Below are positions 10,024 to 64,000 of a stretch of DNA of 64,000 nt, piece after piece. The position numbers were made by a program, and so were the translations under genes. The notes below the pieces were generated by a model. That model was not told where the DNA came from. It saw only the letters and a program-made list of their open reading frames with translations, and ran no database searches. Location: the NCBI GenBank assembly GCA_913043275.1, contig CAJWLL010000006.1, positions 1 through 64,000 of the forward strand, in the 5' to 3' direction. Source of the DNA: an uncultured Flavobacteriaceae bacterium (lineage in GTDB: Bacteria > Bacteroidota > Bacteroidia > Flavobacteriales > Flavobacteriaceae). Each line of letters starts with the position of its first letter. Position 1 is the stretch's first letter.

Positions 10024-10150
10024 ATTGATCTTTTCATTAATCGTTAAAGATACATCATTCTATTTTTTTTAATTATGGTGTTTGAGTAGTTTCCAAAATC
10101 TCACTCTCCTATTAAATGAGTAACTTTAAAATTAAAATCTACTTTGAATT

Positions 10151-11497: not shown

Positions 11498-11511
11498 ATT
11501 GTTTGATTATC

Positions 11512-12054
11512 ATGAATGCGAGAGTCTTATTTATTATTTTTTACCTTAGTTTTTTTTGGATCCATGCTCAAACCATTGAATGGATGACTTTTGGTCAGGC
11601 CATGGAAGCACAGAAAAAAAATCCTAAAAAAATTCTTGTCGATGTTTATACCGATTGGTGTGGGCCTTGTAAATTGATGGATAAAAAAACCTTCCAAAAT
11701 CGCGATGTGGCGAACTATATTTCTGAGCATTATTACCCCGTAAAATTCAATGCTGAGGGACAAGAGACTATTAGCTACTTCGGAAATACTTTTGCTAACC
11801 CTAATTATGATCCGAATAGAAGAGGAAGAAATTCAACCCATCAGTTTACCCAATTTTTGGGGGTCAGAGGTTACCCAACGATCATTTTTATCAGTGAAAT
11901 GGGTGATTTGATTACCCCTTTGGTGGGCTATCAAAATCCGCAACAGATAGAACTTTATCTCAAAATGATCAAGCAAGGAGATTACATGATTTTTAGTAAG
12001 CCTGATGATTTTGAAAAGTATCGAAAGAATTTTAGACCTAAGTTTAGAGGTTAA
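11512..12054 (+). CDS. Exported thioredoxin-family protein
   Basis: Start moved from TTG 11503 to ATG 11512 because MNARVLFIIFYLSFFWIHAQ is then a clean signal peptide; the protein is 180 residues. The thioredoxin active site is YTDWCGPCKLMD, and the cis-proline loop is VRGYPTIIFI. There is an insert of about 25 residues (NTFANPNYDPNRRGRNSTHQF) between the fold's central strands. The CGPC site and the export signal suggest a periplasmic reductase or a DsbD-dependent thiol protein; the partner is unknown. The gene follows the peptide transporter with only 14 bases between. Confidence 0.85.
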   Translation: MNARVLFIIFYLSFFWIHAQTIEWMTFGQAMEAQKKNPKKILVDVYTDWCGPCKLMDKKTFQNRDVANYISEHYYPVKFNAEGQETISYFGNTFANPNYDPNRRGRNSTHQFTQFLGVRGYPTIIFISEMGDLITPLVGYQNPQQIELYLKMIKQGDYMIFSKPDDFEKYRKNFRPKFRG

Positions 12055-12254
12055 TGGATTAAGCCTCCATATCTCTAGAATCAAGAACTGGATGGTGCAT
12101 TTTGATATTTTTTTAATGGTGAAAATTCCATGGAGATACTGCCGTTAGATAAAAAAATGAGGTTCAGAAAAGAAATTCATTTTCCTTACAAGGACAATTA
12201 AATGTTCTTATTCTAGAAATAGGAGTGAAAAGATATAAATTAATTGCAAAAAAA
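12055..12254. other. 200-base gap between convergent genes, no feature recognised
   Basis: This spacer lies between the thioredoxin stop and the lpxB stop. I find no open frame of useful length, no tRNA, and no stem followed by a T-run that would pass as a terminator. Most other convergent gene pairs in this window have almost no gap, so this one is unusually long and may hold an unrecognised RNA end or decayed sequence. Confidence 0.4.
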
Positions 12255-47961: not shown

Positions 47962-48109
47962 ATTTTACAAAAATAAATCCAAAATCGGGGAAATAAAATA
48001 TTAGTTAATATCTAATGATAAGTCAAAACTGTTTTTGTTGAGAATTTTTTTGTTCATTTGAAAAAAGTTAAAGTTATATACCCTCTTCATTTTGAAAAAA
48101 ACAGCTGCT

Positions 48110-49573
48110 ATGTCTTCTAATAAAATTGGACTTTACTTGGGGCCGACTGTATTTTTTCTGACCCTTTTTATTTTTAATCCACCGGATTTAAATGCTGCTT
48201 CTAAAGCGGTTTTAGCCTCATCACTTTGGATTTCCATTTGGTGGATTTCTGAAGCCCTTCCAATTTCAGTGACGGCCCTGCTTCCTATTATTCTATTTCC
48301 TCTTACAGGCGGGATGGAATTGGCTGATACCACTGCATCCTACGGGCATAAGCTAGTTTTCCTTACCATGGGTGGATTCATGATTGCTATTGCCATCGAA
48401 AAATGGAATTTACACAAGCGTATTGCGCTCAATATCATTTATTTAATAGGAACGGATATCAAAAAAATTATTTTGGGCTTTATGCTCGCCACAGCCTTTC
48501 TTTCAATGTGGATTTCCAATACTGCCACGTCGGTTATGATGCTGCCCATTGGCATAGTGATCATTAAGCAATTAAAGGACAATTCAAAGGTTAATGTGGA
48601 TGAACGCAATACTTTTGCGAAGGCGTTAATGCTTTCGATTGCCTACAGTGCATCCATTGGAGGAATATCTACACTGATCGGTACTCCAACAAATATGGTT
48701 ATGGCTGGTGCCATTTCTCAAATCTATGGTTATGAGATATCATTTATTGATTGGTTTATTTTTGGCTTTCCACTTTCAATCATATTACTCTTCTTTTCAT
48801 GGTATTATTTGACCAGAATCGCTTTTTCTTTTAAAGAAATTGGTTTTCCAGGAGGTAGGGAAAAAATTTCAAAATTGAGGCAGAGGATGGGCAGTTTTAC
48901 TTATGAACAAAAAGTGGTAAGTTTTGTCTTTATAGCAGCAGCCATCTGTTGGATATCAAAGAATTTTTTACTGAAAAATATTTTCCCCAATATTGACGAT
49001 ACCATAATTGCTATGTTTTTTGCAACCCTTTTATTCATAATAAATTCAAAAGATAAGAAGGAAAAAATCCTGAAATGGAAGGATACAATTAATTTACCTT
49101 GGGGCATATTATTGTTGTTGGGTTCCGGTATGTCTTTTGCCAAAGCAGTGGACAGCAGCGGATTGTCTGTATGGGTTGGTAATCAAATTTCCGATTTTGG
49201 AACAATGAATCTCTTTCTTTTACTAATTCTATTGGTAACTCTGGTTAATTTTTTAACAGAGATTTCCTCAAATATGGCAACTATTGCCATGATGCTCCCC
49301 ATCTTGGCTCCCATTTGTCTTGAATTTGATTTGCATCCCTTTGTATTGATGGTTGCGGCCTCTGTATCTGCTTCATGTGCGTTTATGCTGCCGGTTGCTA
49401 CACCACCAAACGCTGTAGTTTTTGGTTCGGGCTATTTGAAAATTCCCGATATGGTCAAAAAAGGATTTTTATTGAACATTACATCAATCCTTATCATTAC
49501 CATAATGGTTTACTTTCTTTTGCCGATATTGTGGGATTTGGTACCAGACCAATTTCCCGAAGAATTAATTTAG
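48110..49573 (+). CDS. SLC13/DASS family sodium-anion symporter
   Basis: Start chosen at ATG 48110 (MSSNKIGLYLGPTVFFLTL) rather than TTG 48092; 487 residues. About eleven membrane helices are present. The paired sodium-site hairpins are marked by WISNTATSVMMLPIGIVI with SIGGISTLIGTPTNMVMAG, and by TEISSNMATIAMMLPILAPI with ATPPNAVVFGSGYL. The family carries dicarboxylates or sulfate with sodium. Beside sulfatases and a sugar locus, sulfate or a dicarboxylate are both possible; the substrate cannot be settled by eye. Confidence 0.88.
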   Translation: MSSNKIGLYLGPTVFFLTLFIFNPPDLNAASKAVLASSLWISIWWISEALPISVTALLPIILFPLTGGMELADTTASYGHKLVFLTMGGFMIAIAIEKWNLHKRIALNIIYLIGTDIKKIILGFMLATAFLSMWISNTATSVMMLPIGIVIIKQLKDNSKVNVDERNTFAKALMLSIAYSASIGGISTLIGTPTNMVMAGAISQIYGYEISFIDWFIFGFPLSIILLFFSWYYLTRIAFSFKEIGFPGGREKISKLRQRMGSFTYEQKVVSFVFIAAAICWISKNFLLKNIFPNIDDTIIAMFFATLLFIINSKDKKEKILKWKDTINLPWGILLLLGSGMSFAKAVDSSGLSVWVGNQISDFGTMNLFLLLILLVTLVNFLTEISSNMATIAMMLPILAPICLEFDLHPFVLMVAASVSASCAFMLPVATPPNAVVFGSGYLKIPDMVKKGFLLNITSILIITIMVYFLLPILWDLVPDQFPEELI

Positions 49574-49590
49574 AATTTAAATCACACTTT

Positions 49591-50715
49591 ATGGCGATTA
49601 AAATCACACAAGTCACCAGTGAGTCATTTGAATGGGAAAGACCGGGGATATGGAATGGTATGCATTTTTATGGTCCAGGCCGACTCCATAAAGTAACCGA
49701 ATATACCGATCAGGGAATTCATGGAATAGGATGGAATGGGGGAACAGCAGCCGTTCGACCTAATAATTTTTCAAAGCTTTTTGTGGACTATTACAAGTCT
49801 TTTTTGATTGGAGAAAACCCTCTAGAAACGGAAAAATTAACCGTCAAATTAGGGGAAAAGCAAAATAAAATTTTAGGTTCTGCAGGACTGCATACTCAGG
49901 TTTTGGCTGCAATAATTATTGCTTGCTGGGACATAAAAGGAAAAGTAGAAGGAAAATCAATTCACAGTCTTCTGGGAGGTTTTCAGAAAAGAGTAAGGGC
50001 CTATATTGCCGGCGGATACTATGCAAAAGATAAAGGACTGGAGGACTTACAGGAGGAACTACTTTACAATGTGAATAAACTAAATGCAACTGCCGTTAAA
50101 ATTAAGATTGGTGATCCCGCTATCGGAATCGCCATGGATATGAAGCGCGTCGAAGCAGCTAGAAATGCAATTGGACCAGAGATTGATTTACTCGTAGATG
50201 CCAATTGTGCATTTGATTTACCTTCTGCCCTAGAATATGCCAAAGAAATGGAAAACTATAATGTATATTGGTTTGAAGAACCTTTGGCTATACATGATTT
50301 TAAGGCTCACAAAACTCTAAACGCCTCAACCTCTTTGACCATTGCCACTGGAGAAAATTATTATACACTGGCCGATTTTGAAACTCTTATAGAAAATAAG
50401 GGTGCAAGCATGCTCAATGTGGATGCTACTATTTGTCCTGGTTATGATGTGGCTTTGGCGGTTGCAAAACTGGCTGAAGAAAAGGGTTTGAATATCGCAC
50501 CCCATGGATGTCAAGAGTTGCAATTAGCATTGGTAGCTGCTGTTTCGAACGGGGAATTACTCGAGTATTATCCACCTGAAGTTGACGAACTTCGAAAAGA
50601 GCTATTTTTTCCTAAATTAAAACTGGATAGCGATGGATATGTAACGGTTCCCGATACACCTGGGATTGGCTTTGATCTGAATATGGACTTATTAAATCGA
50701 TATAAGGTAGGGTAA
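49591..50715 (+). CDS. Enolase-superfamily (MR/MLE) enzyme, probable acid-sugar dehydratase
   Basis: The track ORF begins inside the upstream gene; the real start is ATG 49591 (MAIKITQVTSESFEWERPG), giving 374 residues. Catalytic elements of the mandelate racemase/RhamD type are in place: Lys170-x-Lys172 (VKIKIGD), metal ligands Asp203 (DANCAF), Glu229 (FEEP) and Glu255 (TGENY), and His305 (APHG). This is the set used by aldonate and uronate dehydratases. The exact sugar acid is unknown; L-rhamnonate, L-fuconate or a uronate derivative would fit the neighbourhood. It starts 17 bases after the SLC13 transporter, which may import its substrate, and converges on lldD. Confidence 0.83.
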   Translation: MAIKITQVTSESFEWERPGIWNGMHFYGPGRLHKVTEYTDQGIHGIGWNGGTAAVRPNNFSKLFVDYYKSFLIGENPLETEKLTVKLGEKQNKILGSAGLHTQVLAAIIIACWDIKGKVEGKSIHSLLGGFQKRVRAYIAGGYYAKDKGLEDLQEELLYNVNKLNATAVKIKIGDPAIGIAMDMKRVEAARNAIGPEIDLLVDANCAFDLPSALEYAKEMENYNVYWFEEPLAIHDFKAHKTLNASTSLTIATGENYYTLADFETLIENKGASMLNVDATICPGYDVALAVAKLAEEKGLNIAPHGCQELQLALVAAVSNGELLEYYPPEVDELRKELFFPKLKLDSDGYVTVPDTPGIGFDLNMDLLNRYKVG

Positions 50716-50743: not shown

Positions 50744-51898
50744 TTATCTAATCAGCCTCTTAGTAAGATCTTTAGTGTTTTCACAGCACATCTGTTCCAT
50801 CACTTGTTTCAACTGTGCCTTGAGAATGGAGATTGTATGATCTCCTCCCTTTTTTCCCAATGCCGATACGCCATACATAAAACTTCTTCCCAGGAAAGTA
50901 AAATCTGCTCCCGATGAAAGTGCTCTACCTATATCAGCGCCACCTCGAATACCACTGTCCATCATAATTTTGATTTGGTCTTTATACTTAGGGGCAATGG
51001 TTTGTAAGGAAGTAATAGTAGCCTGTCCCATATCTACCTGTCTCCCCCCATGATTTGAAATGATTATACCGTCCAAACCCAATCGAATGGCAGTTTCAAC
51101 ATCTGCCTCAGACTCTACACCTTTGATTACCAATTTACCCTTCCACAAATCACGTAACTTTTTTACTTTTTCCTCATTAAGACGGCCTTCAAAAGTGGTA
51201 TTCATGAATTTTCCCAGTTGACTCAAGTTGAGGTTTTTCGGCATATAAGGCTTTAGTACTTCAAAATTAGGTTGTCCGTTGATTAATGTTTTTAATGCCC
51301 ATTCAGGACGTTTAATTACGCGAATTATATTTTGGAGAGTCATTCTGGGCGGCATAGACAATCCGTTTCGGATGTCTCTGGGGCGATACCCAAAAGATGG
51401 AACATCAGAGAGAATTACCAAGACGGGACACTTTACTGCATCAATTCTTTTGACGAGGTCTTTAGTCACTTTCTCTTCAGCAGGATGATAGAGCTGGAAC
51501 CAAGCTTTACCTTCTGTAATTTCAGCTATAGTCTCTATGCTGGCTGTGGTAACAGTGCTGAGAACAAATGGAATATTGTGTTCAAAAGCTGCCTTGGCCA
51601 AAATCTCTGGGGATCTGGGCCACATCAATCCCTGTAAGCCTATTGGAGAAACTCCAAAAGGGGCATCGTACTCATGTCCAAACAAATCTGTTTTTAGAGT
51701 AGTTCCATTGAAGGGAACCAAATAGCGGGGCTTCATTTCTACTTTCCGAAGCTCGTGGGTGTTTTTGTGTAAATTGATATCTTCATTGCAACCCCCATCC
51801 AAATACTCAAAGGCGAATTTGGGAATTCTTTTTTTGGCTTTTGCTTTTAGGTCTTCAATCGAAGGGTAAAGGGGATTGTATTGAATTGGTTTTGACAA
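50744..51898 (-). CDS. lldD: L-lactate dehydrogenase / FMN-dependent alpha-hydroxy-acid oxidase
   Basis: A 384-residue FMN enzyme. It contains FAFEYLDGGCNEDINLHKNT and PRYLVPFNGTTLKTDLFG at the N-terminus, PIGLQGLMWP, and GKAWFQLY. The catalytic region is GLDGIIISNHGGRQVDMGQ (His and Arg acting on the hydroxy acid), followed by IMMDSGIRGGADIGRALSSGADFTFLGRSFMYG. It oxidises L-lactate to pyruvate and passes electrons to the respiratory chain. L-Rhamnose breakdown by the nearby rhaEW/I genes yields L-lactate, so this gene closes that pathway. It follows the NCS1 permease by 11 bases. Confidence 0.9.
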   Translation of the reverse strand: MSKPIQYNPLYPSIEDLKAKAKKRIPKFAFEYLDGGCNEDINLHKNTHELRKVEMKPRYLVPFNGTTLKTDLFGHEYDAPFGVSPIGLQGLMWPRSPEILAKAAFEHNIPFVLSTVTTASIETIAEITEGKAWFQLYHPAEEKVTKDLVKRIDAVKCPVLVILSDVPSFGYRPRDIRNGLSMPPRMTLQNIIRVIKRPEWALKTLINGQPNFEVLKPYMPKNLNLSQLGKFMNTTFEGRLNEEKVKKLRDLWKGKLVIKGVESEADVETAIRLGLDGIIISNHGGRQVDMGQATITSLQTIAPKYKDQIKIMMDSGIRGGADIGRALSSGADFTFLGRSFMYGVSALGKKGGDHTISILKAQLKQVMEQMCCENTKDLTKRLIR

Positions 51899-51909
51899 AA
51901 GAGATTGAA

Positions 51910-53292
51910 TTATTTTTTCTGATTAATTTTACTAAAGATAATAAAAAGCATTCCACAGCATAGCCAAGCAGGAAGTGTTAAAAAAGAGAGGAATACTCCT
52001 TGGGTTTCTGACCACCCAAAAAAGATTACAAAACTGATAAGCCATGCAAAAAAAACGGATTGGTTAAAACCAATTTCTTTTTTTTCAGCGTAGTTTTTGA
52101 TCACCCCATATCTATCAGCAAAATAATTTTCAAAAACTATAACAGCACCCACTGGTGCGAGTATAAAACCATATAAAGCAACAAAACCCAGAAGTTTCAT
52201 GGCGAAGGCAGGGAAAATACCAGCGAGTGTTGCCACAGAACCAGCTAGAACAGTAGCCTGAGTAATGGACCATTTTGGAAGAATTGCTTGAAAAGCCAAA
52301 CCCGATCTATAAATGGTGGGATTGGCAGTCGTCCAACCGGCTAAGATTACTGCAACAATTCCAAACCAACCAATTGCGTTGTAGGCCAGTGGTCCGGGAG
52401 CGACAGGAGGGGCAGCTCCTTTTGCTAAAAAGGTTGCAGCCTCTGGTGATTTTAAATACACGGCATACAACAAACAGGCTGCAATCCAGGCCATATAGTG
52501 ACCTACATACATCCCGGCAGCGCTAGTCCAACCTGAGGTCGGAGATTTGGCGTATCGGAATACCGACAGGTCTGACATACCGATGTGCATTGCGGCATTA
52601 CAAAACCATGACCATAGAAAAACGTGCCAAAAGGTATATTTTATTTGTCCGGGAAAGGGATCCGACCCTTTGCCCCAAACAGCAATAAAATCAGAAAAAT
52701 TTTTAATCTCCAGTTTGTTGGCGGCCGCCACTCCGCAGGCTAAAAAAGCCAAGACAATTATGGGAGACATCCAGTTTGCCGCCTTGGAAACCATGCCATA
52801 TCCTTTGGCGGCAATCCATGTGGTCAATCCTCCAATGATTATTACTACGATGACCCAAGTCATACTATTGGGCATAATATCGGAGAGCTGAGGCATTTCC
52901 ATACCAGTAGGGACGCCGACAGCTGTTGCGGATACTGTAATCATTGATCCCGCCAAAAAACAAAACAGAATACCATTGGCGACATTATAGAAACTCACCA
53001 ATTTTTTCCCTGAAATTTTTTCCAATTTAAAATAAAGCGTAAAGCGTTCTTTTACTGCGATATTGGCTGTGATGAATCGCCAAGACAAAACTGCCATCAA
53101 ATTCCCCAAAAACAGGCCACCAAGTAAGTCAAAGGCGCTAACTCCCACGGTAAGGAAAAGTGGTCCAATCATAAATTCTGTACCTGCTGCGTGTTCACCA
53201 GCATACATTCCCAGAAAACTTTTCCAGCTCTTTAATTTACTTTTTGGGACGGCCTCCCTTTCAAATTCTGAATTTGTTTTTTTTACTTTCAT
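51910..53292 (-). CDS. NCS1 (cytosine/purine permease-like) transporter in rhamnose locus
   Basis: A 460-residue membrane protein with about twelve helices, resembling the NCS1 family of purine/cytosine/allantoin permeases. It shows MYAGEHAAGTEFMIGPLFLTVGV (helix 1), FLGNLMAVLSWRFITANIAV, VGVPTGMEMPQL, SDLSVFRYAKSPTSGWTSAAGMYVGHYMAWIAACLLY and TTANPTIYRSGLAFQAILPK. Its place between rhamnose genes and lldD, with no rhaT-like gene in the window, makes it a candidate importer of L-rhamnose or L-lactate instead of a nucleobase. It is divergent from rhaEW, with only 57 bases between. Confidence 0.82.
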   Translation of the reverse strand: MKVKKTNSEFEREAVPKSKLKSWKSFLGMYAGEHAAGTEFMIGPLFLTVGVSAFDLLGGLFLGNLMAVLSWRFITANIAVKERFTLYFKLEKISGKKLVSFYNVANGILFCFLAGSMITVSATAVGVPTGMEMPQLSDIMPNSMTWVIVVIIIGGLTTWIAAKGYGMVSKAANWMSPIIVLAFLACGVAAANKLEIKNFSDFIAVWGKGSDPFPGQIKYTFWHVFLWSWFCNAAMHIGMSDLSVFRYAKSPTSGWTSAAGMYVGHYMAWIAACLLYAVYLKSPEAATFLAKGAAPPVAPGPLAYNAIGWFGIVAVILAGWTTANPTIYRSGLAFQAILPKWSITQATVLAGSVATLAGIFPAFAMKLLGFVALYGFILAPVGAVIVFENYFADRYGVIKNYAEKKEIGFNQSVFFAWLISFVIFFGWSETQGVFLSFLTLPAWLCCGMLFIIFSKINQKK

Positions 53293-53349
53293 TTATTATG
53301 TTAATTTGATGACTTAAAGTAGGTATTAAACCAAATTATTAATTTATTA
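53293..53349. promoter_or_regulatory. 57-base divergent control region between NCS1 permease and rhaEW
   Basis: Both operons must be promoted from this short AT-rich gap or from within the neighbouring genes. Near its centre (53312-53320) is ACTTAAAGT, a perfect half-site palindrome around one base. I could not place convincing TAnnTTTG boxes. A shared operator for a rhamnose regulator is possible, but no regulator gene is present in the window. Confidence 0.35.
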
Positions 53350-55452
53350 ATGAAAAATATGAATAATTATAAATACGTCGACTATTTGTGGGATGAAAAA
53401 AAAGCAAATGAACTTGGAGATGATCAAGTTGCCCTCTTTTTGTATCGTTCAAATCTACTAGGGGCGGATTTAAGAATTACCAATTTTGGTGGAGGAAATA
53501 CTAGTTGTAAAACTATTGAAAAAGATCCCATTACCAATGATGAGGTAGAGGTAATGTGGATTAAGGGTTCAGGAGGGGACATTGGTACCCTCAAACGTGA
53601 TGGTATTGCAGGGTTATACAATCAAAGGCTTCATGATCTTAAAAAAGTTTATCGCGGTTTGGCACATGAAGATGAAATGGTCGCACTTTTCAACCATTGT
53701 ATATATGATCTAGACAGTAGGGCTCCTTCCATAGACACACCACTCCACGGATTACTTCCATTTAAACATATCGACCATTTACATCCTGATGCTTTAATTG
53801 CCATTGCAGCGGCAGAAGAAAGCGAAAAAATCACCAAAGAAATATGGGGAGATAGTATGGGGTGGGTGCCTTGGCAACGTCCCGGTTTTGATCTCGGTTT
53901 GCAATTGGAGGCCTGCTTGAATAAAAACGCAGATATTAGAGGGATAGTTTTGGGCAGTCATGGCGTATTTACTTGGGGAGAGACATCCTATGACTCATAC
54001 ATCAACAGTCTCGAGGTTATCGAAACTGCCTCTCAATACATCGAAGATCAAATCACTAAAAAAGGAAATGTTTTTGGAGGACAAAAAATCGATAGTTTGA
54101 CGAAAGAAAACAGGAAAGCTAAAGCAGCTCAATTGGCACCTGTTTTAAGAGGTTTGTGTTCTTCAGAAAATGCTATGATTGGTCATTTCATTGATAATGA
54201 TAAAGTCTTAGAATACATCAATTCTAATGATCTAGAGCGACTGGCTCCTATGGGAACATCCTGCCCCGATCATTTCTTAAGAACAAAAATAAAGCCTCTA
54301 ATATTGAACCTTTCTGCTGATGAAGATCTTTCTGACGAACACTCTGTTTTGGATAAAATTTCTGATTCATTTGATCAGTACCGCAAGGACTATAATGATT
54401 ATTACGAATCTTGTAAGCACCCCGAAAGCCCTGCCATAAGGGATGCAAACCCTGTGGTAATTTTATATCCCGGAGTGGGTATGTTTACATTTGCCAAAAA
54501 CAAACAAACGGCAAGGGTAGCTAGTGAATTTTACATCAATGCTATTAATGTAATGAGAGGAGCAGAAGCCATTTCCAAATACACCTCACTTCCCCGTCAA
54601 GAAGCCTTTGATATAGAATATTGGTTGTTGGAAGAAGCAAAATTACAACGTCAACCAAAAGAAAAACCTCTGTCGAGAAAAGTTGCTCTGGTAACCGGGT
54701 CTGGTGGGGGAATTGGTAGGGCTATATCTGAAAAGCTTATTTCTGAAGGGGCCAATGTTGTATTTACAGATATCTCAGAGGAATATCTTCAGGATGCAAC
54801 TCAAAAATACAGTACAGATCAAGCCATAGGTTGTCATTGTGATGTAACGAGTGCTGATAGTATTGAAGCAGCCGTTCAAAAGACTAGTTTGCAATTTGGA
54901 GGTTTGGACATTGTTGTGCATAGTGCAGGTTTGGCCATATCAAAGTCTCTTGCAGATACTAGTGAGGGAGATTGGAATTTACTTCAAGATGTTTTAGTCA
55001 AAGGCCAATTTCTACTTTCCAAAGTGGCAGCCCATGTTATAAAGAAACAGAATATTGGTGGAAGTATTATAAATATAGTTAGTAAAAATGGTTTGGTTTC
55101 TGGGCCGAATAATTCAGGTTATGGAACTGCTAAAGCTGCTCAAATGCATTTGTCAAGACTATTGGCCACAGAACTGGCACCTCATCAAATCAGAGTCAAT
55201 ACAGTGAATCCTGACGGAGTTATTTTAGGGAGTAAAATTTGGGAAGGTGACTGGGCAGAAGGCCGTGCTAAAGCCTATGGTATTTCTGTTGAAGAGCTGC
55301 CCGAATTTTATGCCAAAAGAAATCTTTTGCATCAAATCATTAGACCTGAAGATATTGCCAACGGAGTTTTTGCTTTTTTGGCAATTTTAGATAAGAGTAC
55401 GGGAAATATCATTAATGTTGATGGGGGTGTGGCAAATGCCTTTGTAAGATAA
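53350..55452 (+). CDS. rhaEW: Bifunctional rhamnulose-1-phosphate aldolase / L-lactaldehyde dehydrogenase
   Basis: A 700-residue fusion. The N-terminal class II aldolase domain (about 20-430) has the metal-site histidines in TPLHGLLPFKHIDHLHPDALI and in VLGSHGVFTWGE. The C-terminal short-chain dehydrogenase (about 440-700) has VALVTGSGGGIGRA (from Thr449) and the catalytic YGTAK (Tyr591, Lys595). The aldolase splits L-rhamnulose-1-phosphate into DHAP and L-lactaldehyde, and the second domain oxidises the aldehyde to L-lactate, as in bacterial RhaEW proteins. It is the first gene of rhaEW-rhaI-kinase; rhaI starts 10 bases later. Confidence 0.92.
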   Translation: MKNMNNYKYVDYLWDEKKANELGDDQVALFLYRSNLLGADLRITNFGGGNTSCKTIEKDPITNDEVEVMWIKGSGGDIGTLKRDGIAGLYNQRLHDLKKVYRGLAHEDEMVALFNHCIYDLDSRAPSIDTPLHGLLPFKHIDHLHPDALIAIAAAEESEKITKEIWGDSMGWVPWQRPGFDLGLQLEACLNKNADIRGIVLGSHGVFTWGETSYDSYINSLEVIETASQYIEDQITKKGNVFGGQKIDSLTKENRKAKAAQLAPVLRGLCSSENAMIGHFIDNDKVLEYINSNDLERLAPMGTSCPDHFLRTKIKPLILNLSADEDLSDEHSVLDKISDSFDQYRKDYNDYYESCKHPESPAIRDANPVVILYPGVGMFTFAKNKQTARVASEFYINAINVMRGAEAISKYTSLPRQEAFDIEYWLLEEAKLQRQPKEKPLSRKVALVTGSGGGIGRAISEKLISEGANVVFTDISEEYLQDATQKYSTDQAIGCHCDVTSADSIEAAVQKTSLQFGGLDIVVHSAGLAISKSLADTSEGDWNLLQDVLVKGQFLLSKVAAHVIKKQNIGGSIINIVSKNGLVSGPNNSGYGTAKAAQMHLSRLLATELAPHQIRVNTVNPDGVILGSKIWEGDWAEGRAKAYGISVEELPEFYAKRNLLHQIIRPEDIANGVFAFLAILDKSTGNIINVDGGVANAFVR

Positions 55453-55462
55453 ATATAAAATT

Positions 55463-56737
55463 ATGTTCGATCGAAAGAAACTAAAATCCTTAAACGAAGT
55501 CATGTTGTTAGAACACCAAAGAGATTGGGATTTCTTGGTAAAGAAATTAATCCAAAAAGGATTGGATACAGATACTTTGCTAGATCAAATTGGCGCCTTT
55601 CAAATAGCTATTCCAAGTTGGGCCTTGGGGACAGGAGGAACACGTTTTGGCAGATTTCCTCAAGGAGGAGAGCCCTCTACTTTGGAGGACAAAATCAAAG
55701 ACGTTGGGATTATTCATGCCTTGAATCAGTCCAGTGGTGCAATCAGCCTTCATATTCCTTGGGATATTCCAAAAAATTACAAGGCCATCGAGAATTTAGC
55801 TAATGGATTGGACATTAAGTTTGATGCTGTCAATTCTAATACTTTTCAAGATCAAATTGATAGTAATCATTCATACAAGTTCGGTTCACTATGTCATGTG
55901 GATGTAGGAGTGAGAAAAGAAGCCATTCGACACAACAAAGAAGTTATTGACCATGGAATTCAACTTGGTTCTAAGGCCCTGACGGTTTGGTTGGCTGATG
56001 GTTCTTCATTTGCGGGACAGCACAGTTTTCGGGGAGCATTTCAACGAACATTGGAATCCTTGGAGGAAATTTATGACCACTTACCTTCGGATTGGAAGCT
56101 GTTGATCGAGTACAAACCCTTTGAGCCTAATTTTTATTCTATGGTCATTCCCGATTGGGGTACATCGCATCTATTGGCATCAAAACTAGGGGATCAAGCA
56201 ACTACTTTGGTTGACTTGGGGCATCACCTCCCCAATACTAATATTGAGCAAATCGTGGCCTTATTAATGCATTTAAACAAACTGGGAGGCTTTCATTTTA
56301 ACGACAGTAAATATGGAGATGATGACCTTACAGTGGGAGCAATTAAACCCTATCAATTATTCTTGATTTTTTGTGAGCTGGTGCAAGGAATGAGAGAAAC
56401 CTCTAACCCTGAATTGTCTTGGATGATTGATGCCAGTCACAACCTCAAAGACCCCATGGAGGATTTATTACAGTCAGTTGAAAGCATCAAAATTGCCTAT
56501 GCCAGAGCCTTATTGGTGGACTATGATAGACTTAAAGCTACTCAGTCACAAAATGATGTTGCAGCCGCACAATCAATATTACAAGAAGCCTTTAGAATCG
56601 ATGTTAGACCATTGGTCAAAGAATCAATCTACAGAAGAGGTGGTGCGATAGATGCCCTTGGAGCTTATCGTTCTCTTGACATTCGCAATCAGTTGATGGC
56701 GGCTCGAGGGCATGATTCTAAATCAACTGGATTGTAA
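55463..56737 (+). CDS. rhaI: L-rhamnose isomerase, RhaI (Pseudomonas stutzeri) type
   Basis: A 424-residue TIM-barrel isomerase converting L-rhamnose to L-rhamnulose. It contains IAIPSWALGTGGTRFGRFPQGGEPSTLEDKI, SLHIPWDIP, FDAVNSNTFQDQ, SKALTVWLADGS and LLIEYKPFEPNFYS. VDLGHHLPNTNIEQIVALL and HFNDSKYGDDDLTVGAI are also present. These match the P. stutzeri-type enzyme and not E. coli RhaA. The metal ligands lie in EYKPFEP, VDLGHH and HFNDSKYGDDD. The stop TAA shares a base with the next ATG (TAATG), so the kinase is translationally coupled. Confidence 0.94.
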   Translation: MFDRKKLKSLNEVMLLEHQRDWDFLVKKLIQKGLDTDTLLDQIGAFQIAIPSWALGTGGTRFGRFPQGGEPSTLEDKIKDVGIIHALNQSSGAISLHIPWDIPKNYKAIENLANGLDIKFDAVNSNTFQDQIDSNHSYKFGSLCHVDVGVRKEAIRHNKEVIDHGIQLGSKALTVWLADGSSFAGQHSFRGAFQRTLESLEEIYDHLPSDWKLLIEYKPFEPNFYSMVIPDWGTSHLLASKLGDQATTLVDLGHHLPNTNIEQIVALLMHLNKLGGFHFNDSKYGDDDLTVGAIKPYQLFLIFCELVQGMRETSNPELSWMIDASHNLKDPMEDLLQSVESIKIAYARALLVDYDRLKATQSQNDVAAAQSILQEAFRIDVRPLVKESIYRRGGAIDALGAYRSLDIRNQLMAARGHDSKSTGL

Positions 56738-58050
56738 TGAAAACAAAATGTTGTTTAGTTTTTGATGTAGGCAAGACCAATCAAAAATTTTTTGTATTCG
56801 ACACTAACTTCAAAATCTTAGCCAGTGAAAAAGTGACCCTTCCCAAAATAGAAGATGAGGAAGGACACATTGCTGAGAATATCGTTAGAATTGTATCATG
56901 GATGAAGGAAAGCTTTAAAACTTTACTATTGTCCGAAACTTTTGAAATTGACAAAGTAAGCTTTTCCGGATTCGGAGCTACTTTGGTACATCTGGATGAA
57001 AAGGGTGAGGTGGTTGCTCCGGTTTACGATTATCATAAGCCGGTGGAGGCCGATACTTTTGAACCTTTTTACTTAGACTATGGACCTGAGTTTCTTTTTG
57101 CAACCCAGACTGGTTCCAAAAATTTGAATTTACTCAACTCGGGTAAACAGCTTTATTGGTTAAAACACAAACATTCAGATGTTTTCAAAAAAATCTATAA
57201 AAGCTTGCACTTACCGCAGTATCTAAGTTATGTTTTTACAGGGGAGATGCACTCAGAATTCACAAGCATAGGTTGTCATACTGACCTTTGGGATTACGAA
57301 AAAAAAGACTATCATCAATGGGTGAAAGCAGAGGGGTTGGATCGACTTTTTCCTCCGATTGTTGAGACTCAAACAACTGTAATCAAAAATATTGGAGGTA
57401 GAAAAATCACTTTTGGTATTGGGATTCACGATAGCTCTTCGGCATTACTAACCTACCTTTTAAAGGGTAAGGAGTCTTTTATCCTCTTGTCAACAGGAAC
57501 TTGGTGCATTAATTTTAATCCCTTTTCCAGTGATTCTTTTCTTTTTGATAAAAAACAGATTGAAGCTGGTGCCACGGCCTACATGAAAATCGACGGATCT
57601 CCTGTAAAAACATCTCGTCTTTTTATGGGAGAAGAATACCGATTGAAAGTTGAAAAATTGATTCAATACTTCAATCAACCAAAACCGTATCACCCATTTC
57701 TCGAATGGAAGGAACAGATCATGGAGGAAGGACTCAAAAAGTCAAAAAAATTCTTTCACTGGAAATACCTCGATAATAGCCATGCTCCACCCCAAGATGA
57801 TCTGGATTTTTCAAATTTTGAAACGGCTTATTATCAACTGATGATAGAGTTGATTGATTTACTTAAAAACAAAATAGCTGTTATCTGTGAAAGCTTGCCC
57901 AAAAAGATTTATATAGATGGAGGTTTTTCGGACAATAAAATTTTTATCAAAATTTTAAGTAAACAATTTCCTCATCAAAAAATCAAAGCTAAACCAGCCT
58001 CCTTTGCATGTGCATTAGGCGCTGCACAGTTGGTTACTAAAAAAAATTAA
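56737..58050 (+). CDS. rhaB: FGGY-family carbohydrate kinase, probable L-rhamnulokinase
   Basis: A 437-residue sugar kinase of the FGGY/ASKHA fold. The N-terminal phosphate motif is CCLVFDVGKTNQKFFVFD, the inner motif GIGIHDSSSALLTYLLKG, and the C-terminal adenosine motif IYIDGGFSDNKIFIKILSKQF; CALGAA follows. FGGY kinases phosphorylate several sugars, but the position after rhaEW and rhaI supports L-rhamnulose. It is shorter than E. coli RhaB (about 490), consistent with a distinct Bacteroidota branch. No gene follows closely; a 112-base gap separates it from the rhamnosidase. Confidence 0.85.
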   Translation: MKTKCCLVFDVGKTNQKFFVFDTNFKILASEKVTLPKIEDEEGHIAENIVRIVSWMKESFKTLLLSETFEIDKVSFSGFGATLVHLDEKGEVVAPVYDYHKPVEADTFEPFYLDYGPEFLFATQTGSKNLNLLNSGKQLYWLKHKHSDVFKKIYKSLHLPQYLSYVFTGEMHSEFTSIGCHTDLWDYEKKDYHQWVKAEGLDRLFPPIVETQTTVIKNIGGRKITFGIGIHDSSSALLTYLLKGKESFILLSTGTWCINFNPFSSDSFLFDKKQIEAGATAYMKIDGSPVKTSRLFMGEEYRLKVEKLIQYFNQPKPYHPFLEWKEQIMEEGLKKSKKFFHWKYLDNSHAPPQDDLDFSNFETAYYQLMIELIDLLKNKIAVICESLPKKIYIDGGFSDNKIFIKILSKQFPHQKIKAKPASFACALGAAQLVTKKN

Positions 58051-58162: not shown

Positions 58163-60898
58163 ATGCGCTTTATCTATTCAATTTTAATTTTTTTATTCCT
58201 TCTTTCAGTTCAAGCTCAAAAAACAACCATTACCGAATTGGAGGTGGACAAACTCATTAATCCTTTGGGATTAGACAGTAAAAACCCTGATTTCTCATGG
58301 ATCATTAAATCCGAAGATTATAATTTAAACCAAACCCATTATCAAGTATTTGTAGCAACAGATAGAACCTTTTCAGATAAAAGTTTACTCTGGGATTCGG
58401 GTAAAGTCAATTCTTCGGAGTCTGTTTATGTGAAGTATCAGGGAAAATCACTCGAATATGCAACCAAGTATTATTGGACTGTAAAGGTTTGGACAAATCA
58501 ATCCAAAAGACCTAAACAGAGCAATATTAGCTCTTGGACAACAGGTTTGATGAATGAAAAGCAATGGAAGTCAGATTGGATAGGTGTCAATAATGATGAC
58601 AAAAAGGACCCGAAAAGCCCTTATTTTACAAATGATTTTGTTGTTGGTAATCAAATAACATCAGCCAATTTATTTATCACCTCTAGGGGTATTTATGAGG
58701 CACACATCAACGGTAAAAGGGTAGGGAAGTCTTATTTAACTCCTGGATGGACTTCGTATAACAATAGAATTCAATACCAAGCATATGATGTTAAAGATAT
58801 GATATTATCAGGTGACAATAGACTAGGAGTAATTCTTGCAGATGGATGGTATAGAAATTTTAGACCCAATAGAGGAAAGAGAAAAACGGATTATGGTGAT
58901 GAAATATCATTTATTGCAGAACTTGTAATAAACTTTCAGGATGGTACAAAGAAAAGCATCATTAATGATAAAAACTGGAATTATCACTTTGGCGCCATTC
59001 AGAGTTCATCGATATACAATGGCGAATTTTCAGATTTCAATTTATCTGATTTAAATTGGTCAAACCCTAAAAAGAATAATACAAATTCAAAAAAAGCTCA
59101 GTCTATATCCAGCTATTCAGGTAAGCTAGACCACACTAGAAATGAAATGATCAAAAAAAGAGAAGTTCTCGATGCTAAAGAACTGATCATTACTCCATCA
59201 GGGGACAAGGTGATTGATTTTGGTCAAAACCTCGTGGGATGGGTAGAGTTTAAATCGAAACTACCAAAGGGTTCGGAGGTTAGCCTTTATCATGCTGAGG
59301 TTCTTGACAAGGAGGGAGAATTTTACACTACCAACCTCAGGGCTGCCAAGCAAAAAAACACCTTTATACTTAATGGGAAAACAGATCAAATTTATCACCC
59401 CACTTTTACTTTTCAAGGATTTAGATATTTAAAAGTTGATGGAATGGATAAAATAAATATTGACAACTTTAAGGCTGTTGCACTTTATTCGGACATGGAA
59501 TTTACGGGTCATTTTACGACTTCTAATGAATTGATCAATCAGCTTCAAGAAAATATTCAATGGGGTCAGAGGGGAAATTTCCTCGATGTTCCTACAGATT
59601 GTCCGCAAAGGGACGAAAGGCTGGGATGGACAGGAGATGCACAGGCGTTTTTTAGTACAGCCGGATTCAACATGGATGTCAAAAACTTCTTTGATAAGTG
59701 GTTGATCGATTTGACTTATGACCAAAGACCTGATGGAGCCGTCCCCGGAGTTGTTCCACATAACAATTATTTAGGTCTCAATGATTCAAAAGATCTCAAA
59801 GGGAATTTTGGAAGAACCGGATGGGCAGATGCAGCGACAATTATTCCTTGGCATTCTTATTTGATTTATGGCGATACAAAAACCCTAGAGCGCCAGTACA
59901 TAAGCATGGTAAAATGGATTGATTTTATGACTCAAAACTCAGAAAATCATTTATATATAAAAGAGGACCACTGGGGAGATTGGTTGTTTTTCTCAAGGGA
60001 TGACGACAATTCCGGTAGATCTGCTGTGACTAGTAAAAAATTGATTGCCCAGGCTTTTTATTGTTATTCTACTCAATTGTTAATTAAGTCTGCAGAAGTT
60101 TTGGGTTATAACGATGATATTAAAAAATATACCGATCTCTATGCAAAATTGGTTAAAGCGTTTAACGATGAATTCGTGACTAAAAATGGAATGTTGATTT
60201 CTGATTCGCAAACTGCTTATGTTTTGGCTTTGCAATTCCAATTACTTTCTAAGGAAAATAATAAAATTGCTTTAGAGAGACTTGTCGATAATATTAATGA
60301 CTATGGTCACCTCACCACTGGGTTTTTGGGGACCCCTTTCCTTTGTCATGTATTGTCGGATAACGGAAAAAAAGAAGAAGCTGTAAAATTAATGCTACGA
60401 GCAGAATACCCCTCATGGTTATACCCTGTCACCAAAGGTGCCACTACGATTTGGGAGCGATGGAATGGAATTAAGCCCGACGGGAGTTTTCAGTATCCCA
60501 GCATGAACTCTTTCAATCACTACGCCTATGGCGCTATAGGTGAGTGGATGTATGCCAATTTAATGGGGCTAAAAATCAACGAGAAATTTCCAGGCTACAA
60601 ACGTTATAAAATCCAACCACTTTTTGATAAAAACTTTGATTACGTTAAAGGAAGTTTTGATTCCAATTATGGAAAAATTCAGATAGCATGGACCAGGAAT
60701 AAAGGAAAACTACAATTGAGCCTTGAAATACCTGCCAACACTTCCTCAGATCTTATACTCAATAAACCGATGCAAGGGAGCTGGAAACTTAACAACTCAA
60801 ATCTGGCCTCTAAAATTTTAAGTCAGAAAGAAGATAACGAAAAGACAAAGTTAGTTTTGGGATCCGGGAAATATAATTTTTCTTTTGTAGCGAACTGA
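58163..60898 (+). CDS. Alpha-L-rhamnosidase, glycoside hydrolase family 78
   Basis: A 911-residue exported enzyme. A signal peptide (MRFIYSILIFLFLLSVQAQ) is followed by beta domains typical of GH78, including Bac_rhamnosid_N (NLFITSRGIYEAHINGKRVGKSYLTPGWTSYNNRIQYQAYDVKDML-like), an (alpha/alpha)6 catalytic barrel and a C-terminal beta domain. The acid is Glu485 in DVPTDCPQRDERLGWTGDAQAF, and the probable base is Glu765 in TTIWERWNGI. It hydrolyses terminal alpha-L-rhamnosyl bonds, releasing rhamnose for rhaM, rhaI and the kinase. No type IX sorting domain is seen at the C-terminus, so it is probably periplasmic. Its stop is one base from the sulfatase stop on the other strand. Confidence 0.95.
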   Translation: MRFIYSILIFLFLLSVQAQKTTITELEVDKLINPLGLDSKNPDFSWIIKSEDYNLNQTHYQVFVATDRTFSDKSLLWDSGKVNSSESVYVKYQGKSLEYATKYYWTVKVWTNQSKRPKQSNISSWTTGLMNEKQWKSDWIGVNNDDKKDPKSPYFTNDFVVGNQITSANLFITSRGIYEAHINGKRVGKSYLTPGWTSYNNRIQYQAYDVKDMILSGDNRLGVILADGWYRNFRPNRGKRKTDYGDEISFIAELVINFQDGTKKSIINDKNWNYHFGAIQSSSIYNGEFSDFNLSDLNWSNPKKNNTNSKKAQSISSYSGKLDHTRNEMIKKREVLDAKELIITPSGDKVIDFGQNLVGWVEFKSKLPKGSEVSLYHAEVLDKEGEFYTTNLRAAKQKNTFILNGKTDQIYHPTFTFQGFRYLKVDGMDKINIDNFKAVALYSDMEFTGHFTTSNELINQLQENIQWGQRGNFLDVPTDCPQRDERLGWTGDAQAFFSTAGFNMDVKNFFDKWLIDLTYDQRPDGAVPGVVPHNNYLGLNDSKDLKGNFGRTGWADAATIIPWHSYLIYGDTKTLERQYISMVKWIDFMTQNSENHLYIKEDHWGDWLFFSRDDDNSGRSAVTSKKLIAQAFYCYSTQLLIKSAEVLGYNDDIKKYTDLYAKLVKAFNDEFVTKNGMLISDSQTAYVLALQFQLLSKENNKIALERLVDNINDYGHLTTGFLGTPFLCHVLSDNGKKEEAVKLMLRAEYPSWLYPVTKGATTIWERWNGIKPDGSFQYPSMNSFNHYAYGAIGEWMYANLMGLKINEKFPGYKRYKIQPLFDKNFDYVKGSFDSNYGKIQIAWTRNKGKLQLSLEIPANTSSDLILNKPMQGSWKLNNSNLASKILSQKEDNEKTKLVLGSGKYNFSFVAN

Positions 60899-60899
60899 C

Positions 60900-62294
60900 T
60901 TATTGGGCATATTTCACAATTTTCCGGTCGAGATTTTCCCTCATTTCTAGAACTACATTTGCATAGTCGGGATGATTCGATAGATTGTTAAGTTCTTGTG
61001 GATCATATATCAGATCATAGAGTTCGTCTTGGGCTTCAATGTCTCTGTACCTCATAAATTTCCATTTTTCGGTTCTGATTCCTTCACTGGAAGGAATGGA
61101 TTTTTTATCCCATAAATGTTCGATAAGTAATTCTTCTCTTTTAAAGGGAGATTTCCCGGTCCTTACATAAGGAACTAAAGAGTTGCCATGGGTTTTAAGT
61201 TTAGAATTTATCCCTGCAAAATCCAAAATGGTTGCCGCTAAATCTACATTGGCCACCATGTCCCGCACATCGAAGTGTTTGTTGACCCGAGGATCAAAAA
61301 TGATCAATGGTACCCTGACCGAATTATCATACATTAACCACTTCCCAGCTATTTGTCTTTCTCCTAAAAAGTAACCATTGTCCCCCATCCAAATGATGAT
61401 GGTATTGTCTTCGATACCTTTGGTTTTGAGCAATTTTCTTATTTTTCCCAGTTCATTGTCTACCCCACCAATCATTCTGTAATAGCCTTTAAGACTTTCT
61501 TGATAACGATCGGGCGTATCATAGCGCCAATACCAACGGGTTCTGTTAAACCCATCTCTAACCCCTTTGGGTAGGGCATCAAATCTTTGGTCTGAAGCAT
61601 TTTTTGGGCCGGGTATTTCCATATCTCTAAAATATCCATCCAATTCTTCTTGCCAGAAATATTGTTTTTTAATTCCCTCCCAAGCGCCGTCATGTGCATG
61701 GGGAGCACTAAAGCTAATGGACAAACAAAAGGGTTGGTTTTTAGCAGTATTTTCTATAAAACTTAGGGCTTTATGTCCAGTGTATCGAGTAAGGTGAACG
61801 GTTTCTTTCTCTATGGTTTTGTAATAATATCCTCGATGATCTTTAAATTTATTATTCCGATCAAATACTTCATGTTCAGAAAATGATTTGGTCAAGTCTC
61901 CATTATTCTTAATGCCTAGTTTACCAAAAAAACCAGTTTTGTATCCTTTTTCTTGTAGTTCATAGGCATAATTTTCTTGGTTGTAAACTGAATCCAATTT
62001 GGTCCCTCCAAGAGTGAATTTGTGCTTTCTTTCATATAATCCTGTGATGATGGTTGCACGACTGGCCCCACAGATTGGTGTGGTAACAAAAGCTTTTTTA
62101 AAATAGGCTCCCTCTCTTGCCAATTGGTCTTGTTCGGGAGTAATGATGATCTCATTTCCGGCATAGCCAATGGCATCCCACCTTTGGTCATCGGTTACGA
62201 TTACAATAATATTTGGAGGATTTTGGACAGATTTTTCTTTGTCGCATGACCAAAAAATTAGAATTAAAAAGAGTATTATTATTCTATTCATCAT
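60900..62294 (-). CDS. S1-family sulfatase, lipoprotein
   Basis: Start moved from 62378 to ATG 62294 or 62291 (MMNRIIILFLILIFWSCDKEKS), giving 464 residues and a lipoprotein signal with Cys in FWSC. It contains IIVIVTDDQRWDAIGYAGN (metal Asp pair), and the formylglycine motif CGASR in TTPICGASRATIITGLYERKHKF (Cys about residue 75), which fits CxAxR. The later metal region is IIWMGDNGYFLGERQIAGKWLMYDNSVRVPLIIFDP. The usual GKWH reads GKLGI, as in several S1 branches. It removes sulfate esters, probably from a rhamnose-rich polymer. The start overlaps the rhaM stop (ATGATGA). Confidence 0.9.
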   Translation of the reverse strand: MMNRIIILFLILIFWSCDKEKSVQNPPNIIVIVTDDQRWDAIGYAGNEIIITPEQDQLAREGAYFKKAFVTTPICGASRATIITGLYERKHKFTLGGTKLDSVYNQENYAYELQEKGYKTGFFGKLGIKNNGDLTKSFSEHEVFDRNNKFKDHRGYYYKTIEKETVHLTRYTGHKALSFIENTAKNQPFCLSISFSAPHAHDGAWEGIKKQYFWQEELDGYFRDMEIPGPKNASDQRFDALPKGVRDGFNRTRWYWRYDTPDRYQESLKGYYRMIGGVDNELGKIRKLLKTKGIEDNTIIIWMGDNGYFLGERQIAGKWLMYDNSVRVPLIIFDPRVNKHFDVRDMVANVDLAATILDFAGINSKLKTHGNSLVPYVRTGKSPFKREELLIEHLWDKKSIPSSEGIRTEKWKFMRYRDIEAQDELYDLIYDPQELNNLSNHPDYANVVLEMRENLDRKIVKYAQ

Positions 62295-62605
62295 AAAGAG
62301 AAAACTTTTTCTAGGTTCAACTGTTTTGGTGAATTGTCGGGATGGGTTTTCATCAAGTCGCTCATAAATTCCCACCATTTTTGTACTATGGGATTTTCAC
62401 CCAGTGATTGAGAATCACTTCCATTGGTTTCTTGAAATGCGAAAAGACAGTTGGTTTCAGTATCGTGGTAAATGTGATAAGTCTTGACTCCCGTTTCTTT
62501 GAGCAGTTTTTTTAACTCCGGCCAAATTCTTTCGTGACGTTTTTTATATTCCTCCACCGAATTAGGTTTTAAATACATTTTAAAGGCCAGTTGATTCAAT
62601 TCCAT
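62291..62605 (-). CDS. rhaM: L-rhamnose mutarotase
   Basis: The track starts at 62653, inside the sulfatase gene; the natural start is ATG 62605 (MELNQLAFKMYLKPN), giving 104 residues, the family's usual length. FKMYLKPNSVEEYKKRHERIWPELKKLLKETGVKTYHIYHDTETNCLFAFQE matches RhaM, with the catalytic His in KKRHERIWPEL. QKWWEFMSDLMKTHPDNSP completes the fold. It interconverts the alpha and beta anomers of L-rhamnose for the isomerase. It lies between two sulfatases and overlaps the next one by ATGATGA, tying desulfation to rhamnose use. Confidence 0.95.
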   Translation of the reverse strand: MELNQLAFKMYLKPNSVEEYKKRHERIWPELKKLLKETGVKTYHIYHDTETNCLFAFQETNGSDSQSLGENPIVQKWWEFMSDLMKTHPDNSPKQLNLEKVFSL

Positions 62606-62624
62606 TCCATTAATAATTTTATTT

Positions 62625-64000
62625 TCAATCCAATGGTTGCCACCACTCTTCAATTTGGCGACTCATTTTTGCTACTATTTCAGGGTGCTTTTCAGCCAAA
62701 TTTATTTTTTCTTCGGGGTCCTGCTCCAAGTCAAATAATTGAATCTGGTTAGAATAAAACCCATAGTAATTTGCTTGAGGATCTATAAAATCTCTAATAA
62801 CCAAATCCGAGTTAGGCATCATCAACTTCCATTTTTGACTCAAGGCAACTTTGTACAAAACTGTCTCAGTTGGTTTTTCTACATTCAAAATATCGTGATT
62901 ATAGCATTCAATAAAAAGGGTTTCCCTTTCATTCAATTTTTCTTTGTCCAGTACATTGATCCCAGGCAGTTTTTCATCAGTCACGTTTAAAAAGCTCAAT
63001 ACGGTAGGAACTAAATCAATATTACTGACTAATGTCGAACGATTCATTTCAGGTTTGATAACTCCGGGATGTTTGAACATTATTGGAGTTCGTATACCTC
63101 CTTCGTGCGGGGCTCTTTTAGAACGGGGGGCATATCGATTGTGTTTCTTGGATTGAATCCAACCGTTGTCTGTGGTGTAAACAACCAAGGTGTTTTCATC
63201 CAAGGATTTTTCTTTTAAGTAGTTTGTCAAATCTCCAACCGTCTGATCCAACCATCCACACATGGCCCAGTATTTGGCAACACTTTCATTGGGAGCTACT
63301 TTGATGTATTTGTCCAATAGGGCATCAGGAGGGTTATGGGGAGTATGAGGTAAAAAAGGCGCATACCAAACAAAAAATGGAACATTGTCTTTTTGAGTTT
63401 GATCTATAAAATTAAAGATGGGATCCAATCCCTCACGACCAATTTTTAGCCCTTCATCTCCATGCCTTCCTTTTCTTTTGTAATCGCCGTGAGTCATGCC
63501 ATCATCAAACTTTCCCTCTTCCCATGACCCAAGCCACCATTTTCCTGATTGAAAAGATCGATATCCCTTTCTTTTCAGATAATCTGTCAAAAGTTTGTTT
63601 TTATAAAACTTCTCCTTAATCATATTAAAAAGATCATTTCGTTCTTTACTGTATAGGTAATTGACAGGTTTTTTCTTAATAGATTTTTTCGGTTGGACTT
63701 TTTGATAACCATTTTTTATCCACCTACTTCCATCCCGATTTGAGTTTCCTGCATCATTTCCTGTTTGAGAATGTTGAAAAGCATATTTGCCAGTAATGAT
63801 ACTTGCCAAAGAGGGGCCACAGAGAGGACTTGTCACATACCCCCTGGTGTAAGTAGCGGATTCCTTTGCCAATTGATCTATATTAGGGGTTTTAATGTGG
63901 GGATGCCCCATAAAACTATAATCCCCCCATGCCTGGTCATCGGAAAGAATAAAAATTATATTGGGTTGTTTCTTTTCTGCAGGCTTTTGTTGTGAAGGGT
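62625..64000 (-). CDS. S1-type sulfatase with non-standard CGPSL motif, 5' end outside window
   Basis: The track starts this gene at an internal ATG (63911), but the frame stays open to the window edge and reads PSQQKPAEKKQPNIIFILSDDQAWGDYSFMGHPHIKTPNIDQL. The first metal motif (SDDQAWGD) therefore lies upstream, and the true start is beyond 64000. The formylglycine site reads CGPSL in SPLCGPSLASIITGKYAF, with Leu in place of the Arg of CxPxR, and the usual GKWH reads GKWWLGSW. Other motifs are intact: YAPFLPHTPHNPPD, YTTDNGW, RAPHEGGIRTPIMFKHPG. It belongs to the sulfatase superfamily, possibly a branch with a modified active-site signature. It is followed by rhaM after about 19 bases. Confidence 0.82.
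   Translation of the reverse strand, partial: PSQQKPAEKKQPNIIFILSDDQAWGDYSFMGHPHIKTPNIDQLAKESATYTRGYVTSPLCGPSLASIITGKYAFQHSQTGNDAGNSNRDGSRWIKNGYQKVQPKKSIKKKPVNYLYSKERNDLFNMIKEKFYKNKLLTDYLKRKGYRSFQSGKWWLGSWEEGKFDDGMTHGDYKRKGRHGDEGLKIGREGLDPIFNFIDQTQKDNVPFFVWYAPFLPHTPHNPPDALLDKYIKVAPNESVAKYWAMCGWLDQTVGDLTNYLKEKSLDENTLVVYTTDNGWIQSKKHNRYAPRSKRAPHEGGIRTPIMFKHPGVIKPEMNRSTLVSNIDLVPTVLSFLNVTDEKLPGINVLDKEKLNERETLFIECYNHDILNVEKPTETVLYKVALSQKWKLMMPNSDLVIRDFIDPQANYYGFYSNQIQLFDLEQDPEEKINLAEKHPEIVAKMSRQIEEWWQPLD

Follow-up and report, generated by a model that had tools for sequence, protein, structure and literature searches.

A remote NCS1 relative as the predicted L-rhamnose importer of a Flavobacteriaceae rhamnose locus

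Uptake of L-rhamnose has been ascribed to RhaT, to an ABC system and to RhaY, and at least three carrier families have been counted (PMC3870299). RhaT is an L-rhamnose:H+ symporter of the DMT superfamily (PF06379), RhaY is an MFS sugar porter and RhaFGHJ/RhaSTPQ are ABC transporters, the latter two likewise serving L-rhamnose uptake in rha loci (PMC3870299). The NCS1 family (TIGR00800, PF02133) includes the cytosine:Na+ symporter CodB (7qoa), in which cytosine is held between Trp108 and Phe204 and also by Gln105, Asn280 and the break in TM6, and in which Na+ is bound between TM1 and TM8 (PMC9379551).

Our literature search, which covered main texts, found no paper linking an NCS1-like protein to rhamnose transport, though a tabulated assignment may exist in supplements or fitness databases; the word rhamnose is absent from the main text of the GapMind paper. 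Certain Echinicola locus tags are said to carry rhamnose fitness data; a literature search for these tags returned nothing.

The window analysed here is a stretch of 64,000 nucleotides from an uncultured Flavobacteriaceae bacterium (contig CAJWLL010000006.1), and it contains a rha locus served by an NCS1-like permease. We consider it highly probable that this protein is an inner-membrane L-rhamnose importer which replaces RhaT and which belongs to a distinct NCS1-related, LeuT-fold clade of sugar and polyol carriers. This reading is based on homology and predicted fold, on gene linkage and RhaT complementarity, and on residue changes, while substrate, coupling to Na+ and direction of transport are predicted.

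The rhamnose locus of the window

The permease is encoded on the reverse strand (51910-53292, 460 amino acids) by an intact open reading frame, read from the window, with an ATG start and no internal stop. Following it on the same strand after a gap of 11 bp is a gene for an LldD-like FMN-dependent L-lactate dehydrogenase (50744-51898; PF01070, E 3.9e-116), the top NCBIfam matches of which are L-lactate dehydrogenase models, under the model cut-offs. On the other side an AT-rich intergenic region of 57 bp, read directly from the sequence (53293-53349), separates the permease from divergent genes on the forward strand. These encode RhaEW, a fusion of rhamnulose-1-phosphate aldolase and lactaldehyde dehydrogenase (53350-55452; TIGR02632 and NF006191, over cut-off), the L-rhamnose isomerase RhaI (55463-56737; TIGR02629, E 2.4e-140, under the model cut-off), a RhaB-like FGGY rhamnulokinase (56737-58050; PF00370 over cut-off, best NCBIfam match rhamnulokinase, weak) and then a GH78 alpha-L-rhamnosidase (58163-60898; PF17389, E 2.4e-117) with a hydrophobic N terminus that, judged by eye, resembles a signal peptide.

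Beyond the GH78 gene lies a sulfatase on the reverse strand (60900-62378; PF00884, E 4.2e-41), probably a companion in the use of sulfated rhamnan or ulvan. A RhaM-like L-rhamnose mutarotase frame (62291-62653, reverse strand) was recognised by its likeness to a cluster of 104-amino-acid neighbours in 15 relatives of the permease, which are of the same family, and its true start is likely an internal ATG. The frame overlaps the annotated start of the sulfatase at 60900-62378 and is bracketed by that gene and a second sulfatase gene (62625-63911). From the two sulfatases beside the RhaM-like frame, the source drawn on at this locus is probably a sulfated, rhamnose-rich polysaccharide.

The locus is a full set for L-rhamnose release and catabolism with one permease. 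In the window the rha genes have no second permease linked to them, and the statement of the first-pass annotation that the sole permease of the pathway, in an operon with lldD, looks like an NCS1 protein holds. Neither RhaY nor the ABC systems, which belong to other superfamilies, were found in this rha locus. The window's genome (88% complete) contains no match to RhaT (PF06379) or to PF02133, and the permease itself matches no Pfam family, PF06379 included.

Two further observations concern the surroundings. A DASS anion symporter gene at 48092 forms, with an enolase-superfamily gene resembling sugar-acid dehydratases, a separate forward-strand pair (48092-50715) beside the rha locus; among relatives both genes are kept in some, only the DASS gene in some and neither in others. 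In relatives within the genus (L055, L056, L058, L060, L162 and L163) a GntR-type regulator of about 348 amino acids lies between rhaEW and the permease; the window has 57 bp at that place, and no homologue of the regulator was found in its 88% complete genome.

Kinship with NCS1 and the substrate site

Single-sequence searches of Pfam, NCBIfam and PDB sequences with the window permease returned no match, and profile-profile and fold comparisons were therefore needed. A 40-member permease profile gave only a chance match when run against the PDB with hmmsearch. Some relatives match the NCS1 models TIGR00800 and CytX weakly but significantly (best E about 1e-12 to 1e-13), the best value for TIGR00800 being 2e-13, far under the model cut-off. 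When an alignment of 40 permease relatives was compared by hhalign with a reference set of 14 canonical NCS1 proteins, among them the allantoin carrier and CodB of E. coli, the match extended over the full length (430 columns) with a probability of 99.5% and an E value of 4.5e-23. The AlphaFold2 model of the permease (pLDDT 88.9) had 7qoa (CodB, E 2e-10), 4d1a and 2jln as its top Foldseek matches, and the predicted fold is thus closest to CodB and then to Mhp1. SiaT and the SGLT proteins of the SSS family, which also have the LeuT fold and move sugars or sugar acids with Na+, were the next-best fold matches; however, SiaT and SGLT2 score below CodB, and the weak NCS1-model matches together with the profile match place the clade with NCS1. 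In the tree one long, fully supported branch parts the permease clade from all 14 NCS1 proteins, the deeper order being unsure on account of long branches.

Profile and fold comparison make the window permease a remote NCS1 relative and not a plain cytosine permease. It shares the predicted LeuT fold and the full-length profile match with CodB, Mhp1 and NCS1, but it is not filed as a plain member of the family because the models built for the family do not match it and the aromatic hallmark of TM3 is lost. The label of cytosine/purine permease given in the first-pass annotation therefore survives as remote kinship, seen in profile and fold, and not as plain membership, for which a single-sequence match is missing.

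At the substrate-stacking position in TM3, Trp108 in CodB, all 14 NCS1 proteins have Trp and none of the 34 members of the permease clade does, these carrying Leu, Ile, Gly or Ala (Leu113 in the window permease); MAFFT alignment and hhalign agree on this register. The substrate-binding Asn280 of CodB in TM8 is replaced by Ala or Ser. Conservation of nucleobase-binding residues, named beforehand as a result that would refute the proposal, is accordingly not observed at these two positions. In contrast, the Na2-site threonines of TM8 (CodB Thr278 and Thr279) correspond to Thr321 and Thr322 and are invariant in 34/34 clade members, and the TM6b Arg of NCS1 proteins is likewise retained. The aromatic residue of TM6 (CodB Phe204, Mhp1 Trp220) is aligned with Ala234 by MAFFT and with Phe230 by hhalign, and the alignment of TM6 is uncertain. 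The clade has invariant residues of its own, E33, H34, T38 and E39 in TM1 and N232, H236 and D241 in or near TM6, which are absent from canonical NCS1 proteins save for single matches. Judging from the alignment, these polar positions could serve a sugar.

Linkage with rhamnose genes and complementarity with RhaT

Relatives of the permease are encoded in 436 stretches of GTDB genomes, the best 80 of which were used; the linkage count joins these loci with loci from further genomes, and some genomes enter it twice. Among close relatives flanked on each side by 6 kb or more, RhaI, RhaB or RhaEW was encoded nearby in 70/73 and all three in 68/73, and the corresponding figure for more distant relatives (any of the three) was 13/17. 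RhaM and a GntR-type regulator are also recurrent neighbours. Gene order varies by lineage: the window's genus has the divergent arrangement, most other lineages have rhaEW-rhaI-rhaB-(lldD)-permease, and permease-rhaI is seen elsewhere. No recurrent nucleobase gene was recognised among the neighbours; the first-pass annotation had held that frequent linkage with purine or pyrimidine genes would refute its proposal, and the genes that recur are those of rhamnose instead.

The clade is tight and spans many Bacteroidota as well as plasmids of Alteromonadales, its hosts being for the most part marine. In Pseudoalteromonas sp. KG3 and Catenovulum adriaticum, plasmid-borne rhaEW-rhaI is followed by a permease homologue annotated as 'nucleoside transporter'. 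The plasmid pAlt76 of Alteromonas sp. 76-1 (L219:2472-11409) carries a clade member by a sulfatase, a sugar kinase, a TRAP transporter and KduD/KduI, with no rha genes in that stretch, and the substrate of this member may differ from that of the main clade. RhaI, or every rha gene, was missing from the surroundings of five of the 17 distant and three of the 73 close members (e.g. L132, L139, L143). Since some members, that of pAlt76 included, lack rha neighbours, other sugars are possible for some of them.

A single sample of 396 genomes was screened for RhaI, RhaT and the permease alike, with RhaT counted only as a strong match (roughly E < 1e-35); weaker PF06379 paralogues (about 1e-22) occur in three permease genomes (G235, G409 and G433). 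Of the 66 RhaI-positive genomes, 30 encoded the permease without RhaT and 32 encoded RhaT without the permease; 2 had both and 2 had neither (Fisher p 7e-14, a value that overstates independence since the genomes are related). Counted by genus, the RhaI-positive set divides into 19 with the permease only, 18 with RhaT only, 2 with both and 2 with neither, and both solutions are present within the window's own family. Full-length RhaI was found in 32/33 permease genomes, and in the remaining one (G402) a remote RhaI-like gene adjoins the permease. Canonical NCS1 proteins (PF02133) were present in 28/198 genomes, and RhaI in 5/28 of those, near the base rate of 66/396.

This pattern is that expected of non-orthologous replacement of RhaT. 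The two proteins have the same predicted role, as sole monosaccharide permease of a rha locus, and a mutually exclusive distribution but for the two genomes with both, whereas their protein families and folds are unrelated and the proton coupling of RhaT stands against the predicted use of Na+ in the permease clade. Linkage and near-perfect complementarity with RhaT together point to L-rhamnose as the substrate; of the candidates put forward in the first-pass annotation, rhamnulose and L-lactate are not favoured.

The GH78 and sulfatase genes, which neighbour the permease in the window and in some relatives, and the KduD/KduI genes and TRAP system beside the Alteromonas 76-1 copy invite the thought that the imported substrate is not the free sugar but a rhamnose-containing oligosaccharide, or a disaccharide of uronate and rhamnose, derived from ulvan or rhamnogalacturonan. 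We regard this as improbable, since GH78 is an inconstant neighbour (16/73 close loci), the complementarity is with RhaT, a monosaccharide carrier, and the signal-peptide-like start of the GH78 enzyme argues that free sugar arises outside the cytoplasm.

That the permease transports what the pathway ends in, L-lactate or lactaldehyde, is suggested by the operon with lldD, which lies 11 bp away in the window and neighbours the permease in 62/116 loci, and by LutABC genes near several distant members. Against it, lldD is absent from 21 of the 68 close loci with all three rha genes and from 17/17 distant loci, several of which have LutAB instead; moreover, the pathway makes lactate inside the cell, and the complementarity with RhaT would go unexplained, as a lactate carrier would not replace it. 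A lactate or lactaldehyde carrier is thus very improbable, and L-lactate was rejected as the substrate on the ground that lldD is optional.

It is most improbable that the permease is a conventional NCS1 carrier of nucleobases or nucleosides which stands in a rha locus by chance. CodB and Mhp1 as nearest folds and the database label of the plasmid relatives speak for this view; against it, rha linkage recurs in many genomes of two phyla, the stacking Trp and the substrate Asn are lost and the clade lies outside all 14 canonical proteins. Linkage and complementarity led us to reject a chance neighbourhood.

The sister branch and the proposed route

A sister branch of proteins of about 570 amino acids, labelled 'hypothetical protein', has some 34% identity to the permease. 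In 5/5 Bacteroidota loci (L152, L153, L154, L156 and L157, about 8956-12180) a mannitol dehydrogenase-like gene is next downstream, with gaps of -1 to 16 bp, and in 2 of these a fructokinase-like gene is third. Two Alteromonadales plasmids (L222:7980-12179 and L223:7989-12287) repeat this order with genes annotated 'mannitol dehydrogenase family protein' and 'carbohydrate kinase'. The gene order suggests that the sister branch is a predicted mannitol carrier, and with this reading the whole clade would consist of transporters for sugars and polyols. A predicted mannitol permease of certain other species, which may belong to this family, is reportedly mentioned in a study of the Zobellia mannitol operon.

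In the route that we propose, the GH78 enzyme would free L-rhamnose outside the cytoplasm and the permease would import it, probably together with Na+ bound at the conserved Na2-type site. RhaM, RhaI, RhaB and RhaEW would, going by the known functions of their families, convert L-rhamnose to dihydroxyacetone phosphate and L-lactate, and LldD would oxidise L-lactate to pyruvate. Sugars or polyols would be the substrates throughout the clade, L-rhamnose for most members and probably mannitol for the sister branch. It appears likely, with somewhat less assurance than for the importer itself, that an NCS1-related LeuT-fold clade not covered by existing models has moved from heterocycles to sugars and hexitols, the main branches carrying L-rhamnose and the sister branch mannitol, with both modules also on Alteromonadales plasmids.

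If these readings are true, one more family of L-rhamnose carriers would stand beside RhaT, RhaY and the ABC systems, and the labels 'nucleoside transporter' and 'hypothetical protein' on members of the clade would be misleading. The clade would be a natural example of a single transporter fold exchanging flat heterocycles for polyols as its substrates, and the altered residues given above are open to test. In many marine Bacteroidota, some of them related to species that degrade ulvan, the missing step of L-rhamnose uptake would be filled.
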